From positions 3,987,501-4,051,500 of the forward strand of contig NC_014623.1 in assembly GCF_000165485.1 (NCBI RefSeq): a stretch of DNA of 64,000 nt, read 5' to 3'. Under the pieces are notes generated by a model, which saw only the letters and a program-made list of their open reading frames with translations, searched no databases and was not told the DNA's origin. Shown piece after piece: positions 14,870 to 21,672 of the stretch; the stretch's first letter is position 1, and each line of letters opens with the position of its first letter. Both the position numbers and the translations under genes were made by a program. This DNA comes from Stigmatella aurantiaca DW4/3-1 (GTDB lineage: Bacteria > Myxococcota > Myxococcia > Myxococcales > Myxococcaceae).

Positions 14870-16492
14870 CTACCGCGAGCGGCGGCGTCGCCAGAGTCCG
14901 GCGAGCGCCCAGGCGCCCAAGGGGAACAGGGCCCCGAGGGGAACCGTGGAGCACCCGCCTGCCTGGGCATCGGCGTCGCCCTCTCCTCCCACGGAGGAGC
15001 CTGGCACCCCCGTGGAGGGCCCCGTCGTGGGCGGCTGGGGGATGCCAGGGGAGGGGATGCTCGTTCCCGGGGGCGCGACGGTCACCTGGGCCGTGGCGGT
15101 CTGCTGGGCCGTGCCCGAGGTGGCCGTCGCCGTCACCGTGTACTGCCCTTCCTTCGGGTAGACGTGGGACACCGCGTCGCCCTCGCCCGTCTCCTCGTCT
15201 CCAAAGTCCCAGCGCACCGTGGCGCCCATCAGGGAGGACTCGGCGCGGAAGAGGGCCTGGTGGGGGGCGACGCCTCGCTCGCCTTCGACGATCAAGGTCA
15301 GCGGGTGGGGGGTGGGCTTCTCCTCGGGGGCGAGCTGCTTGGTCAGGGTCAGGGAGTCCGCGGTGGCGCCCGAGGGCGTCACGAGCCGGGCGGTGAGGGT
15401 CCCGTCGATGACCTCGACGTCCAGGAAGCCATAGTCCTTGTTGTTCCGGACGGCGCTCCACGCGGGCTTCGAGACGGGGAAGTCCCGCAGGTTGGCGCCA
15501 CCGCTGCCCACCACCAAGTAGGGGATCCCCGTGCCGGAGGGGGCCACCGCGTCGCCCTTCATCGCGTAGGCGCGCTCGTAGTGGTGGTCATGTCCGGTGA
15601 GGACGAGGTCCACCCCATACTTCTCGAAGAGGGGGCTGAACTCCCGGCGCATGAGGAGCTGGGAGCCGTGGTCTCCGCTCGACCAGGGGGGGTGGTGGAA
15701 GAAGACGATCTTCCACGGCGCCTTGCTGGCGGCGAGATCCTGCTCTGCCCAGGCCTTCTGCGCCGCCAGGGTGCAGCGGTCCTTCGAGGCCAGGCCAATG
15801 GCGCAGTTCGAGTCCAGCCCCACGAAGTGCACATGCCCCCAGTCGAACGAGTAGTAGCGCTCGCCCCCACTGGGGCTGGTGGGCAGGTAGAGGTTGTCCA
15901 GGTAGGGCTGGGCTTGATCCGTGACGTACTCGTGGTTGCCCGCCACCGCGAAGAACGGAACCTCCATCAGCAGGTCCTTCATGGGGACGAACATGTTGTT
16001 CTGGATCTGCTCCTCGGTGCCGGACTCGTAGGCGACATCCCCCATCCCGATGAAGAGTTCAGGCCGGTAGGAGAGCATGCTGGCGGCCACTTCCTTCTGG
16101 CGGGAGCCGCCCGTGCCGAAGTCCCCCATGGCGGCGAAGTGCACCCGGCGCGTGCCGGGGACGGGCGCGGTGTGGAAGCGCTTGGGGCTCGAACTCGCGC
16201 CGCACGTCTCCACCACGTAGGTGTACTCGGCCCCGGGCGACAGGCCATTGAGCACCACGGCGTGGATGCGCCCACTGTCCGTCGAGCGGGCCGTCTGGTT
16301 CGTGGCCCCTCCGGTGCCGTAGCGTACCTCCGGGGTGCAGTTGGCGTTCACGCGGAACGCGACGGTGGCTGTGTCGGGTCCCACCCGTTGCAGGTAGGGG
16401 GAGCGGGTGAGCGTTGCCGCGTGCGCCACCCCCGTGGTCAGCACGAGAGCGGCAGCCAGGGCGCCGAGCGCAGGGACCTTCGCCAAATGCAT
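14870..16492 (-). CDS. Exported purple-acid-phosphatase-like metallophosphoesterase with PKD domain and MYXO-CTERM-like tail
   Basis: 540 residues with signal peptide (LAAALVLTTGVAHAAT), an N-terminal fibronectin-like domain (about 28-110), then a metallophosphoesterase core: GDFGTGG, GMGDVAYESG, GNHEY, HHPPW and GHDHHYER supply the two-metal site. A PKD domain follows (TVRWDFGDEETGEGD to YTVTATATSG), then a Pro/Gly/Thr linker and a C-terminus of GGCSTVP, hydrophobic helix and RRRRSR. This Cys-helix-Arg ending is the MYXO-CTERM pattern used for sorting to the myxobacterial cell surface. The enzyme probably hydrolyses phosphate esters outside the cell. It is flanked by terminator-like hairpins on both sides, so it is likely monocistronic. 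Confidence 0.9.
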   Translation of the reverse strand: MHLAKVPALGALAAALVLTTGVAHAATLTRSPYLQRVGPDTATVAFRVNANCTPEVRYGTGGATNQTARSTDSGRIHAVVLNGLSPGAEYTYVVETCGASSSPKRFHTAPVPGTRRVHFAAMGDFGTGGSRQKEVAASMLSYRPELFIGMGDVAYESGTEEQIQNNMFVPMKDLLMEVPFFAVAGNHEYVTDQAQPYLDNLYLPTSPSGGERYYSFDWGHVHFVGLDSNCAIGLASKDRCTLAAQKAWAEQDLAASKAPWKIVFFHHPPWSSGDHGSQLLMRREFSPLFEKYGVDLVLTGHDHHYERAYAMKGDAVAPSGTGIPYLVVGSGGANLRDFPVSKPAWSAVRNNKDYGFLDVEVIDGTLTARLVTPSGATADSLTLTKQLAPEEKPTPHPLTLIVEGERGVAPHQALFRAESSLMGATVRWDFGDEETGEGDAVSHVYPKEGQYTVTATATSGTAQQTATAQVTVAPPGTSIPSPGIPQPPTTGPSTGVPGSSVGGEGDADAQAGGCSTVPLGALFPLGAWALAGLWRRRRSR

Positions 16493-16623: not shown

Positions 16624-17364
16624 CTACTTCTGGACGGTATAGGAGGAGAGTTCCTCGAGCCGCTCGCCGTCCTCCTTCACCTTGCCGACGCCCGGCACGA
16701 GCCAGTAGATGCGCTCCTTGCCATCCTTATCGGGGCGATCCCGCAGGATCTTGAGGGCATTGGTGAAGGTGCCGGCCGGCACGGTGACGGTCTCGTTCAC
16801 GGCCACGACGCGCCAGGTGTACGTCCGCTCCTTCTCCTCCTGGGTGCCATCGTCCAGCCGGGTCAGCTCGCGGATGGTGGAGGCGGTGCTCCAGTTCAGC
16901 GCCTGCGGCCGGGCCAGGGACTTCACCGTGGCCGGAGACCAGGTCGTCACCCGGGCGAGGGCCCCACCCTTGCGGTCCTCCTCGCGCAGGCGCACCACCG
17001 TGCCGTTGTCGAGTTCCACCTGCCAGGACAGCTCTTCCAGGTGCGGTTGGATGCTCCGCATCGCGGTGGCCGTCACATCCATCTCCGGCACGCGCTCGAT
17101 GCCCATCACCTCCACCGTCTTGTCAAAGGTCCCGCGAACGGGGTCCGTGATGCGGTAGGTCCACGAGGAGCCCACCGTGAGGGGCCAGAGGCTCTGACGG
17201 ACGTCCGGGCTCTCCGGCGAATCAGGGTTCGGATTCAAGGGGTCGCCCGGGAGGGCTCCAGGACCGTCCGAGGGACCATTCGCGCCCGCGGGGAGACTGC
17301 CGCCACCGCCACACCCCACCAACCATGCTCCGGCCACCAGGGCCGCCACCACACTGCGCTTCAT
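16624..17364 (-). CDS. Putative lipoprotein, last gene of VTC/DUF4956 operon
   Basis: 246 residues from ATG 17364, which overlaps the upstream stop by ATGA. The N-terminus MKRSVVAALVAGAWLVGCGG is a lipoprotein signal with lipobox LVGC. An Asp/Pro-rich linker leads to a domain starting LWPLTVGSSWTYRITDP, with TYTWRVVAVNETVTVPAGTF and RIYWLVPGVGKVKEDG. This matches a widespread uncharacterised outer-surface domain found in many myxobacterial lipoproteins. No catalytic residues are evident. Coupling to the operon suggests an envelope accessory role. Confidence 0.75.
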   Translation of the reverse strand: MKRSVVAALVAGAWLVGCGGGGSLPAGANGPSDGPGALPGDPLNPNPDSPESPDVRQSLWPLTVGSSWTYRITDPVRGTFDKTVEVMGIERVPEMDVTATAMRSIQPHLEELSWQVELDNGTVVRLREEDRKGGALARVTTWSPATVKSLARPQALNWSTASTIRELTRLDDGTQEEKERTYTWRVVAVNETVTVPAGTFTNALKILRDRPDKDGKERIYWLVPGVGKVKEDGERLEELSSYTVQK

Positions 17365-18062
17365 ACTTGCTCCTCCCGTGCCCCTTTGGGGCTCATCGCC
17401 GCCCATCGCAGTCCCCGAAGGGCTGCTCCCTGCGTCAGGCTCAGCGCCGCGACGAGGGTTCCTGGATCCTTCTCCTCGACTTCCATCTCCAGCCGGTGCC
17501 CGTCGAAGTCGAGCGCGCAGGCCTTCACCATCACATTGCGCTCACCGAGGACCTTGCGCAGCGAGGCCTCCGCGGTGACGAGATCATCCGATTGGGCCGA
17601 GAGCATCACCCGCTGCTTCGGCGCTTTGTCCTCCTTGGTGATCAGGTCCAGCACCATCAGCAGGCCGGCGACGAACAGGGTGCCCATGCCGGCGAGCCCC
17701 AGGCTGCCGTGCCCGCAGGCCATGCCCAGGCCGATCATCAGAAAGAGGATGGCCGCGTCGCGCGGATCCTTGAGGCCCGAGCGGAAGCGCACGAAGCCGC
17801 CCAGTCCCACCAGCCCGAAGGCCTTGGCCACGCTGTCGCCGATGACGGCGGTGATGACCGCCGCGGCGGTGCACAGCAACACCTGCGCCTGGACCATGTC
17901 CGCCTTGGGCAGCGCGCGCCCCATCATCAGCCGCCAGGGCCGCAGGGACAGGAGCGCGCCGATGAGCACTGCGGCCGTCATCCGAGGGATGATCGAGGCC
18001 ATGGGAATCGAGGACAGCTCTTTGCCCAGGTCACTGAAGACTGCCGAGAAGGTGGGCTCCAT
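17361..18062 (-). CDS. DUF4956-like membrane protein
   Basis: 233 residues with about four hydrophobic segments: MTAAVLIGALLSL, a stretch around QAQVLLCTAAAVITAVIGD, AILFLMIGLGMACG and GMGTLFVAGLLMVLDLI. Between the second and third is GLGGFVRFRSGLKDPRDAAI, the most conserved part of DUF4956 proteins, which are distantly MgtC-like. A soluble C-terminal domain of about 75 residues has an ACT-like pattern. DUF4956 genes are commonly paired with VTC polyphosphate-polymerase-domain genes, as here. Its biochemical role is unknown; a membrane partner or channel for polyphosphate production is the usual speculation. Confidence 0.75.
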   Translation of the reverse strand: MEPTFSAVFSDLGKELSSIPMASIIPRMTAAVLIGALLSLRPWRLMMGRALPKADMVQAQVLLCTAAAVITAVIGDSVAKAFGLVGLGGFVRFRSGLKDPRDAAILFLMIGLGMACGHGSLGLAGMGTLFVAGLLMVLDLITKEDKAPKQRVMLSAQSDDLVTAEASLRKVLGERNVMVKACALDFDGHRLEMEVEEKDPGTLVAALSLTQGAALRGLRWAAMSPKGAREEQV

Positions 18063-18071
18063 GGTGTTTCC

Positions 18072-19766
18072 TCAGATGCTGGCGCGGGCTTCGGAGACGG
18101 TGGCCGGACGCACCACGCGGTCCAGGGCCGTTTCGTGGGCGGTGGCGATGACACAGTAGGCGTTGCGCAGCAGCGGCAGCCGCCCCGGGAAGGTGCTCAG
18201 CACGCGGTGGATGAGCGCCTCCGCGCGGTCCGTCAGCGGCAGCCCCCGGAGCGAGGAGAGGACGGTGGCGGGCCAGCGGTCCGCGAAGTCCTCGCGCAGG
18301 CGCCAGGCCCGGAAGTCATCCATGCCGTCGATCGAGTCGATGGCCTCCTTGGTGAGCGCGGCCCCCTGCTCGCGCAGGGCGAAGGCCTCGGCGGTGGCGA
18401 GCCCCGTCAGCGAGCGGAGCACCAGCTTCAGCGCCTTGCCCATGAGCTGCTCGCGCAAGCCGCTGGCGAACGGCGAGTCCTGGCCGGTGACGCTGCGCAG
18501 CACCGCGAGCCGGTCATGCGAGACGAGCGACTCGCGCAGCGCATCCACGCGCTCTCCTTTGAGGCCCGTGAGGCTGCGCGCCACCTCCGAGTACAGCTTC
18601 TTCTGGATGCCCAGCTCGCGCACGGACCAGGCCACCTCGTTCTCCACGCCCGCCAGGCCCAGGAGCACCTGAGGCAGGTGCCGGTCATGCAGCGCGCGCT
18701 CCCGCAGGGCCCACGCCTCCTGGGTGTCATTGCCCTTGAGCCCTGTCACCACTTCCCCCGGGGCGAGCGGGTAGAGCTGCGAGCGCAGCGCCATGGCGCG
18801 GGGGGCCTGGAGGCTACCGAGGCTGGCGGCGACATCCACCGGCACCACCTTGGAGAGCAGCTCCCGCAGCGACCACGAGGCTTCATCCTCCAGGCCCGAG
18901 AGGCTGCGCACCGACAGGCCCGGGAAGCGCTCCACGGACGCGAGCCTGCGCTGGTGGGGCGCCAGGCCCGGCACGCCGCCCAGCAGCCACACCGCCAGGG
19001 CGGGCTCGCGCACCTCCAGCGCATCCAGCCCCTGGAAGAAGCGCTCCTCCACGTGCTCCACCGTCACCGGCTCCGGGGTCACCTGGGCCGAGGGGCTGAT
19101 GCACTGGACCTGGGGCTCGCGCCGCTCCAGCCTCGCGAGCACCGCGTCGACGATGCGCTGCTCCAGCGCCCACAGGGGCTGGTCGTTGTTCTCGATGACG
19201 AGCCAGCGCGCCGGATCCTTGCGCGCCATCTCCAGGAAGGCCTCCCGCACGCGCACGGACAGCCCCGCGCCCGCCAACCCCTTGCGGCTGTCTCCGTCCG
19301 AGTTCCGGCCTTCCTTGACCTTGCCCAGCCGCTTGCGCAGCCGCGCCAGGTCCGGCTCCACGTCCACCAGGATGACCAGGTCCGGCCAGATGCCCTTCGA
19401 GGCCAGCTCGCACGCGGGCGCCAGATCTTCCAGGGGCAGGCCCCGCCCGCCGCCGCTCAGGGCCAGCTGCGAGTAGAGGTAGCGGTCGCTGATGCACACC
19501 TCGCCCCGGCAGAGCGCGGGGGAGATGACTTCCTCGAGCTGCTGAGCGTCCCGCGCCAGGTTGAGGAAGAACTCGGTGCGCGCGCCCATCTCCAGCAGCT
19601 TCGAGTCCCGGGTGAAGTCCCGGACGCGTCTCGCGATGGGAGACTGCAACTCGCCGCCCTCGCGGGCGTGAGCCACCTTGTAGCCCTGACGCCGCAACCG
19701 CGCGGCCAGGAGGTTGGAGAGTGTCGTCTTGCCGCTGCCGTCGATGCCTTCGAAGTCGATAAACAC
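18072..19766 (-). CDS. Thymidylate-kinase-like P-loop protein fused to a helical repeat domain
   Basis: 564 residues with a GTG start at 19766, six bases after the VTC-domain stop. Residues 1-215 resemble thymidylate kinase: P-loop FEGIDGSGKTT (5-15), ISDRYLYSQLALSGGG (92-107, the DR(Y) motif), VILVDVEPDLARLRKR (131-146) and a basic LID-like region 143-162. Residues about 286-524 are roughly nine copies of a 27-28-residue repeat with consensus SLxGLxxxxAWxLRE. No ordinary Tmk carries this tail, so housekeeping dTMP kinase is doubtful. The P-loop fold is shared with PPK2 polyphosphate kinases; with the VTC gene beside it, a polyphosphate- or nucleotide-coupled phosphotransferase is an attractive inference, but TMP kinase activity remains possible. 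Confidence 0.8.
   Translation of the reverse strand: MFIDFEGIDGSGKTTLSNLLAARLRRQGYKVAHAREGGELQSPIARRVRDFTRDSKLLEMGARTEFFLNLARDAQQLEEVISPALCRGEVCISDRYLYSQLALSGGGRGLPLEDLAPACELASKGIWPDLVILVDVEPDLARLRKRLGKVKEGRNSDGDSRKGLAGAGLSVRVREAFLEMARKDPARWLVIENNDQPLWALEQRIVDAVLARLERREPQVQCISPSAQVTPEPVTVEHVEERFFQGLDALEVREPALAVWLLGGVPGLAPHQRRLASVERFPGLSVRSLSGLEDEASWSLRELLSKVVPVDVAASLGSLQAPRAMALRSQLYPLAPGEVVTGLKGNDTQEAWALRERALHDRHLPQVLLGLAGVENEVAWSVRELGIQKKLYSEVARSLTGLKGERVDALRESLVSHDRLAVLRSVTGQDSPFASGLREQLMGKALKLVLRSLTGLATAEAFALREQGAALTKEAIDSIDGMDDFRAWRLREDFADRWPATVLSSLRGLPLTDRAEALIHRVLSTFPGRLPLLRNAYCVIATAHETALDRVVRPATVSEARASI
18195..18911 (-). repeat. About nine 27-28-residue protein repeats within the kinase fusion
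   Basis: Coding repeat. Successive units begin VRSLSGLEDEASWSLREL, AASLGSLQAPRAMALRSQ, VTGLKGNDTQEAWALRER, LLGLAGVENEVAWSVREL, ARSLTGLKGERVDALRES, LRSVTGQDSPFASGLREQ, LRSLTGLATAEAFALREQ, IDSIDGMDDFRAWRLRED and LSSLRGLPLTDRAEALIH. Each unit looks like a pair of short helices, suggesting an elongated solenoid. Confidence 0.8.
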
Positions 19767-19772
19767 GGTGCC

Positions 19773-20489
19773 CTAACCCCCAAGAACCCCATCCGCGGCG
19801 AAGGAGTGAATCCTCGCCATCCCCTCGGCGAACTTGCTGTACGCCGGTTTCCTGCCGCCCGGGTGCATCGCCGCCAGCCACTCTGGCAACTCCTGACCCA
19901 GGTGCTTCACCTCCATCACCACACGGCTGTCCAGGGAGAGCGGTGGCCCGAGCCGCTCCTGGGTCAGGGCCGTCTCCGACAGCGCCAGCCCGGGAGGGAT
20001 GGCGTGGTAGCCAATGGCTCGGTCCACCGTCACCCGCCAGGTGTGCGAGGCCTGGTACACGTGCCGCTGGTACGTCACCCCCAACACGGGAATCAGTCCG
20101 CCCCCGGCAATCAACGGCAGCAGGCCCGTGCCCCCGCGCAGGACGCTCTTCAGCCGCGAGCGCGGTACCCACACCCGGCGCTTCTGCGTCACCCCATTGC
20201 GCTCACGTTTGGCCTCGAGCACCACGCGCTCGACACCGTCGGCCCCCAGGTCCGGCGAGTACTCCTTGGTGCGGACCTTCAGGCAATCCTGCGGGGTGAG
20301 CATGGCCCGCTGGGCCAGCGGGTACCCCGGCTTGTCGAAGTAGACGGACACGATGCGCGTGGGCGGAGGGAGGTAGCCATCCAGCTCCAGGCACAGCCGA
20401 GAGCAGATCGTCGCGGCGGCCTGAGCGTCCAGCACCAGCTTGAATTCGCGGCGCAGCTTGGTGACTTCACCTTCGGCGAACGAGAGCAT
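19773..20489 (-). CDS. VTC-domain polyphosphate polymerase-like protein
   Basis: 238 residues, the length of a stand-alone VTC catalytic domain. The tunnel-lining motifs are in family order: RREFKL (13-18), SVYFD (48-52), LKVRTKEY (70-77), VVLEAKRERN (89-98) with KRR at 103-105, GVTYQRHVY (137-145), VTVDRA (153-158), VVMEVKH (190-196) and AYSKF (216-220). In yeast Vtc4 the equivalent Arg/Lys/Glu residues bind and extend polyphosphate from ATP. The basic residues are well kept, so activity is plausible. Preceded by the porin gene (16-base gap) and followed by the P-loop repeat protein. No signal peptide, so it should be cytoplasmic. Confidence 0.85.
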   Translation of the reverse strand: MLSFAEGEVTKLRREFKLVLDAQAAATICSRLCLELDGYLPPPTRIVSVYFDKPGYPLAQRAMLTPQDCLKVRTKEYSPDLGADGVERVVLEAKRERNGVTQKRRVWVPRSRLKSVLRGGTGLLPLIAGGGLIPVLGVTYQRHVYQASHTWRVTVDRAIGYHAIPPGLALSETALTQERLGPPLSLDSRVVMEVKHLGQELPEWLAAMHPGGRKPAYSKFAEGMARIHSFAADGVLGG

Positions 20490-20505: not shown

Positions 20506-21672
20506 CTAGAATCGGGTGGCCAGCTGCAGGGACAGTTCGGTGCCAGGCACTTCGTCGCCTGGACGAAGGCCGCGCTCGGCCTGTAGCTGTGCCTTGAAGA
20601 AGTCCGAGAAGAGGATGTTGATGCCCCCCACGGTTGTCCAGCCGCGTCCGCTCACATCTCCCCGGAGCTGAAGCGCTTCCACGCCGGCGACCGGCTGGAG
20701 GGCCCACTCCTGGGAGATCGGCAGCTCGTAGCTGAGCAGCCCGAGCTGCGCGGTGAAGGGGCCCAGGGCGAGCTGTCCCCGGACGAACTCACCCGAGACG
20801 TGCAGGGCTCCCAGCTTGACGAGGGCATCGGCCGCCACCGCGTGGCGGGGGATTCCCTCCATCACCTGCACCATGTAGCTGCTGACGCCCACGGTGAGCG
20901 CCTTGAAGGGGCGTACGCTCACGCGCGCGGCCGCGTCCTCGCTGGTGCGCTTGCCCAACTCGTCCTCGGAGCCCTCGAAGAGGCCGCCGGAGATCCTCAG
21001 GTTCCACGCCCCCTTGAGCCGGACCTCGCCCATCATCCCCAGGCGCCGCCCGCCCAACTGGTGCGTCTCCGTCAGGTAGTCCTCGACGAGCCCCCGGCTG
21101 ACCAACGGCAGATCCCAGCTCGACTCGAGGGTGCGCTCCAGGAAGGGGGCCTTGAACTGGCCGGCATAGAGCCGAAGGCTCTTCTGGCCATTCGCGAGCC
21201 GGACGAAGGCGTCCTTCAGGATGTTCTTCGAGGACAAATCGCCGGTCACCTCGGCTTCGAGGTGCTTGAACGAGGCGCCCACGCCCACGCGCGCCGAAGG
21301 GATCGACAGCGTCCGGGCGTAGTCCGTGCGCTCATCGGCCCGGGCCCGGGCGAAGACGCGGCCGAACACGCGCACCTCGCGCTGGGGGGGCCGCTCCTCG
21401 GCCGCGCTCAGGCTCTCGCCCAGCGGTTCGATCTTGGGCTTGGGCTCTTCGGGCGGGGCGTCCGGGCTGCGGGTGCTCGCGGGCCGCGTCACCGCGCCGG
21501 GGTTCACCGGCAGCGCCTCGGCGATGAGGGTGGGCTCGGCAGGGGAGGCGGAGGCTTCCTGGGAAGTCGCCTCCGGGGAGGAGGCCTCTTGTGCCCATGC
21601 GGGCACGCTCACCAGGATCGCGGTGAGAAGGCTCCGCCACGCCGATTCCACCCCGCCACGCCACCCACCCAT
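20506..21672 (-). CDS. Outer-membrane porin, phosphate-selective OprO/OprP-like
   Basis: 388 residues from ATG 21672 with GGGAGG 8 bases upstream. Signal peptide (SLLTAILVSVPAWAQ), then a Pro/Glu/Ala-rich linker of about 90 residues. The barrel portion resembles phosphate-selective porins: KDAFVRLANGQKSLRLYAGQF followed by KAPFLERTLESS is the OprO/P signature, and the end LSLQLATRF has the terminal aromatic needed for outer-membrane insertion. Alternating beta strands fill the rest. As first gene of the VTC operon it could bring phosphate or polyphosphate across the outer membrane; selectivity is inferred only from family. Confidence 0.8.
   Translation of the reverse strand: MGGWRGGVESAWRSLLTAILVSVPAWAQEASSPEATSQEASASPAEPTLIAEALPVNPGAVTRPASTRSPDAPPEEPKPKIEPLGESLSAAEERPPQREVRVFGRVFARARADERTDYARTLSIPSARVGVGASFKHLEAEVTGDLSSKNILKDAFVRLANGQKSLRLYAGQFKAPFLERTLESSWDLPLVSRGLVEDYLTETHQLGGRRLGMMGEVRLKGAWNLRISGGLFEGSEDELGKRTSEDAAARVSVRPFKALTVGVSSYMVQVMEGIPRHAVAADALVKLGALHVSGEFVRGQLALGPFTAQLGLLSYELPISQEWALQPVAGVEALQLRGDVSGRGWTTVGGINILFSDFFKAQLQAERGLRPGDEVPGTELSLQLATRF

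Follow-up and report, generated by a model that had tools for sequence, protein, structure and literature searches.

The window, that is, the whole 64,000-nucleotide stretch of Stigmatella aurantiaca DW4/3-1 DNA considered here, comes from a genome assembled as a single contig of 10,260,756 bases. On its minus strand, a single open reading frame of 564 amino acids (18072..19766) encodes a thymidylate kinase (TMK)-like kinase fused to a helical repeat solenoid. We call this protein, and its relatives of the same type, TMKrep. The start codon is GTG, and GTG or ATG occupies the equivalent place in all orthologues.

The TMKrep gene sits in an operon, all on the minus strand, with the order porin-like gene, VTC gene, TMKrep, DUF4956 gene, and lipoprotein-like gene; the first four are separated by gaps of 16, 6, and 9 bases, and the last two overlap. 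Specifically, the operon is headed by a porin-like outer-membrane protein (20506..21672), homologous (E 1.2e-12) to the porin of a second operon described below, which is itself a PF07396 Porin_O_P protein (6.6e-9). The gene for a VTC-domain polyphosphate polymerase (19773..20489; PF09359, 5.8e-15) ends 6 bases before TMKrep. A DUF4956 membrane protein (17361..18062; PF16316, 2.9e-11), with about four hydrophobic segments by hydropathy, begins 9 bases after TMKrep, and its end is overlapped by a lipoprotein-like, DUF3108-like gene (16624..17406; PF21347, 0.0011, under the cut-off) whose position is conserved. Myxobacteria also conserve, next to this operon, a gene for a secreted purple-acid-phosphatase-like protein with a PKD domain (14870-16492, minus strand).

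The VTC protein is a homolog of yeast Vtc4 (profile match to 3g3q, E 6.5e-20). The catalytic residues of Vtc4 include R264/R266 and E426 (PMC9911596, PMC8749416). Their equivalents in the VTC neighbors of TMKrep are R73 (R264) and E193 (E426), both invariant, and position 75 (R266), which is Lys or Arg. The yeast VTC complex comprises Vtc4 and the membrane protein Vtc1; here, the gene for the Vtc4 homolog is likewise accompanied by that of a small multi-pass membrane protein. The two systems differ in that no SPX domain was found on the window VTC protein, and in that the yeast complex has neither a TMK-like partner nor a porin.

A thymidylate kinase fold with a changed thymine pocket

The kinase domain spans residues 1-215 (19122..19766, minus strand). 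PF02223 matches residues 5-196 with 87.9 bits (cut-off 27), TIGR00041 scores 97.4 bits (cut-off 83.25), and VIA-align superposes the domain on Staphylococcus aureus TMK (4hdc; Z 21.6, rmsd 2.1, 193 residues). The domain carries the P-loop GIDGSGKTT (residues 7-15; 19722..19748) and a DRY motif. A preliminary description, made from the sequence alone, had proposed a thymidylate-kinase fold with exactly these motifs, and both family profiles and the structural alignment bear it out. The AlphaFold2 model has a mean pLDDT of 83.3 for the whole protein, with values below 50 for the P-loop (6-11) and the lid (156-165). We therefore judged the active site by sequence alignment.

That alignment comprised 57 TMKreps from myxobacteria and Planctomycetota and 44 canonical TMKs. 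The TMKrep sample is mostly Myxococcaceae, and an 18-member diverse subset agreed. The TMKreps form one group apart from the canonical enzymes, with support of 100/100. They share with TMKs the P-loop, in which Lys13 is present in 57/57, the DR of the DR[YF] motif (57/57), and R49 (56/57). The residues that recognize the base are another matter. The TMK of S. aureus contacts a thymine-based inhibitor through Arg70, Ser97, and Gln101 (PMC10610096), and docking to Mycobacterium tuberculosis TMK sets the inhibitor thymine against Arg74 and Asn100 (PMC6920704). Profile alignment to Thermus TMK places the thymine-contacting Arg (Thermus R69, S. aureus R70, M. tuberculosis R74) at Asp73 of TMKrep (19548..19550) and the thymine-contacting Gln (S. 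aureus Q101) at Ser104 (19455..19457). The first site is Asp in 47 and Glu in 10 of the 57 TMKreps, versus Arg in 44/44 canonical TMKs; the second is Ser, Ala, Thr, or Cys in all 57, versus Gln in 44/44. Moreover, the usual TMK lid is exchanged for a near-invariant RKGLxGxG loop, which reads RKGLAGAG in the window protein (residues 161-168; 19263..19286). Near-invariant basic residues also mark the group (R53, R72, R108, R142, K145, K146, R161, K162). Judged from sequence, phosphate binding is kept and base recognition is rebuilt.

Because all 57 TMKreps have other residues at the thymine contacts, and a near-invariant new loop stands in for the usual lid, the label "dTMP kinase" that automatic annotation assigns is probably incorrect. 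TIGR00041 nonetheless calls the window TMKrep and two of three other TMKreps tested dTMP kinases, and genome annotation would give the protein that name, which looks mistaken. A 350-residue repeat tail, linkage to VTC, and the existence of a distinct housekeeping copy further separate TMKrep from thymidylate kinase. Four genes of the genome match PF02223: the housekeeping tmk (148.5 bits; L001, G000:C1:4731120-4731686), TMKrep, a TMKrep paralogue 39-41% identical to it over nearly the full length, and one weak match. The preliminary description had asked whether TMKrep might be the only tmk in the genome; the normal gene at G000:C1:4731120 shows that it is not. Together with the changed thymine pocket, that separate gene led us to reject a housekeeping tmk that has acquired an appendage. 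Across the order, a PF02223 gene is present in 60/60 sampled genomes, several of which carry the housekeeping type only. In one divergent TMKrep (L054, 8062-9726, genome G139), the RKGL lid has been lost along with several basic residues, and the gene has no VTC neighbor.

The repeat tail

Residues 236-549 (18120..19061, minus strand) form the solenoid, in which nine repeats of 26-28 amino acids are flanked by N- and C-terminal capping helix pairs. Autocorrelation of the tail gives z 5.1 at lag 27 and z 5.9 at lag 110 (about 4 x 27.5), where the 95% shuffle maximum is 3.5; the kinase half gives no repeat signal. The predicted structure is a confident solenoid with two helices per repeat (mean pLDDT 93.4 for the tail alone). 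The repeats have in common the motif x-A-W-x-L-R-E and are counted by its nine Arg residues, R274, 301, 328, 355, 383, 411, 438, 465, and 491 (codons within 18294..18947). These residues are present in 57/57 TMKreps at eight sites and in 55/57 at R328, in both phyla and in both paralogues. Among the acidic columns of the repeats, only E474 is as invariant.

A conserved Arg in each repeat is typical of HEAT repeats. The TMKrep Arg occupies the hydrophobic side of the first helix, and thus the ladder may be structural, as in HEAT. For that reason, we do not claim it as a proven polyphosphate track.

Searches for known relatives of the tail returned little. No PC, HEAT, ARM, or other repeat-type Pfam family matched any of nine tails at E <= 1, a search in which HMMER filters may miss divergent repeats, and Foldseek found no match with E <= 0.001. 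Resemblance to HEAT/ARM proteins is limited to the two-helix repeats and the conserved Arg; the TMKrep unit is shorter, there is no family match, and the rmsd to importin-alpha is 16-18. In VIA-align, the top 40 places go to Rpn1/Rpn2 chains, with Z 12.6-15.4 and rmsd about 4.4-5.3 over about 300-319 of the 326 residues; below them come open solenoids, mostly with rmsd 10-19. The alignment to Rpn2 covers 306/326 residues at Z 15.4, a value helical repeats often reach, with rmsd 4.7 and 10% identity; both solenoids are tightly curved and built of two-helix repeats, although the TMKrep unit is shorter and the PC family is not matched by Pfam. We read these results as indicating a tightly curved, toroid-like shape rather than kinship with Rpn1/Rpn2, with which the tail probably shares geometry only.

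The repeat architecture is fixed. Tail length is nearly constant among TMKreps, and a tail without a kinase was never found in 195 Myxococcota genomes. Tail-only matches in 392 planctomycete genomes are fragments in short frames, and the same genomes also contain kinase fragments. On this basis, a stand-alone repeat was rejected for the genomes searched. The helical repeats of the tail seem to constitute a family that has not been described; the preliminary description had likewise been unable to assign the solenoid, and the autocorrelation, the structure prediction, and the lack of a Pfam family on the tail agree with it. A mobile or phage origin was also considered and rejected: in phage and viral contigs, matches are confined to the kinase half, and plasmids give no tail match.

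A conserved gene pair with VTC polymerases

TMKrep and VTC travel together. Among 147 genomes of the class, TMKrep occurs in 75, VTC in 75, and both in 70 (Fisher p 2e-29, a test that ignores relatedness). At each of the 69 measured myxobacterial loci, VTC lies upstream, and its match stops 39-52 bases short of TMKrep. Of the five genomes in which TMKrep is present but Pfam detects no VTC, at least one (G013, L056) does carry a VTC gene adjoining TMKrep, as phmmer reveals. In planctomycetes, VTC lies directly upstream of TMKrep in 14/14 loci fetched and in L042, 15 in total, and DUF4956 and CotH accompany the pair in several. A DUF4956 membrane gene usually follows TMKrep. Exceptions exist: L054 has no VTC nearby, and the myxobacterial paralogue loci L064 and L065 have none next door. 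Beyond Myxococcota and Planctomycetota, the search consisted of a single pattern scan. The Stigmatella genome itself has a second operon (L053 8576-14452, minus strand; G000:C1 ~811575-817452) containing CotH, VTC, a Porin_O_P porin, the TMKrep paralogue, and DUF4956. Each of the genome's two VTC genes is in an operon with one of the two TMKreps.

In two planctomycete loci (L197 3533-4900, L203 2052-3665), an outer-membrane-barrel-like reading frame with no Pfam match stands just upstream of VTC. A Myxococcaceae-type operon also appears in a record titled Comamonas sp. KCTC 72670 (L037, BNCN01000003.1), which is probably mislabelled.

The conservation of the gene pair in two phyla backs the functional link to the neighboring polymerase proposed in the preliminary description. 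Our literature search found no paper joining "thymidylate kinase" and "VTC domain". Given the loss of the thymine residues, the repeat tail, and the almost constant adjacency to VTC in two phyla, TMKrep probably belongs, as a dedicated component, to a machinery for phosphate polymers. We are confident in the narrower claim, namely, that TMKrep acts together with VTC and is something other than a dTMP kinase.

The fuller hypothesis is that TMKrep, a cytosolic P-loop kinase descended from a TMK, no longer recognizes thymine and has come to serve a VTC-type polyphosphate polymerase as its dedicated partner. The kinase would still bind ATP and the phosphate of an acceptor. It probably phosphorylates a non-thymidine phosphorylated acceptor, such as another nucleotide, a primer, or another phosphate-rich small molecule, with phosphate transfer presumably running toward that acceptor. 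The product could feed, prime, or gate polymer synthesis or export. The tail would curve tightly into a toroid-like scaffold and dock the kinase onto a VTC/DUF4956 membrane complex; a docking role had been suggested before, and the conserved adjacency to VTC leads us to find it plausible and to favor it. Taken as a whole, this account is the one toward which we lean, by a modest degree. Regulation, priming, and export coupling of bacterial VTC polymerases are little described in the literature we found, and TMKrep offers a concrete, testable conserved partner for these enzymes.

Other readings give TMKrep a different chemistry. It could be a PPK2-like enzyme that uses VTC-made polyphosphate to phosphorylate a nucleotide, or that makes polyphosphate from an NTP. 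PPK2 and TMK have the P-loop kinase fold in common, VTC is the constant neighbor and supplies a polyphosphate context, and the lost base recognition together with the new basic residues would suit a polyanionic ligand. However, PF03976 (PPK2) does not match TMKrep at E <= 1, the motifs are TMK-type, and a PPK2 is encoded elsewhere in the genome (268.7 bits). Membership in PPK2, an analogy raised in the preliminary description, is not supported by sequence and was rejected for lack of a match, and PPK2-like activity seems unlikely. PPK2 is also missing from the structure-search lists for the kinase domain; since TMKs fill those lists, we draw nothing from its absence. A related and rather doubtful idea is that a TMK-derived enzyme uses polyphosphate itself as acceptor or donor, its Arg-bearing helical ring holding the growing chain beside VTC. 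If so, TMKrep would join PPK1 and PPK2 as a third kinase that handles polyphosphate, one of independent evolutionary origin.

Similarly doubtful is a non-catalytic role, in which TMKrep would bind ATP at its P-loop as an energy sensor and thereby gate the VTC/DUF4956 complex, without phosphorylating any small molecule. The lost thymine site, the rebuilt lid, and the scaffold-like tail fit such a regulatory ATPase, but 56-57 of 57 TMKreps retain the P-loop Lys, the DR, and R49, the Arg for the acceptor phosphate, a set that a pure sensor would not require. We think it very improbable that TMKrep acts, for example alongside CotH kinases, on some unrelated small molecule or protein and meets VTC only through a shared cell-surface phosphorylation pathway: CotH genes do occur in the paralogue operon and at several planctomycete loci, yet the main myxobacterial operon has none, and VTC is the constant partner. 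Least credible is the view that TMKrep is a true dTMP kinase, additional to the housekeeping one and extended by an appendage. The TMK fold and the above-threshold TIGR00041 score speak for it; against it stand the replaced thymine contacts, the separate tmk in TMKrep genomes, and the many relatives that have only that tmk and no TMKrep.

We note a feature of the housekeeping enzymes themselves. In the Stigmatella housekeeping TMK and in those of the myxobacterial order (30 of the 44 sampled canonical TMKs), the P-loop reads GLDGAGTTTQ, with Thr in place of the Walker-A Lys, and in some near-complete genomes this Thr-bearing enzyme is the sole PF02223 copy.
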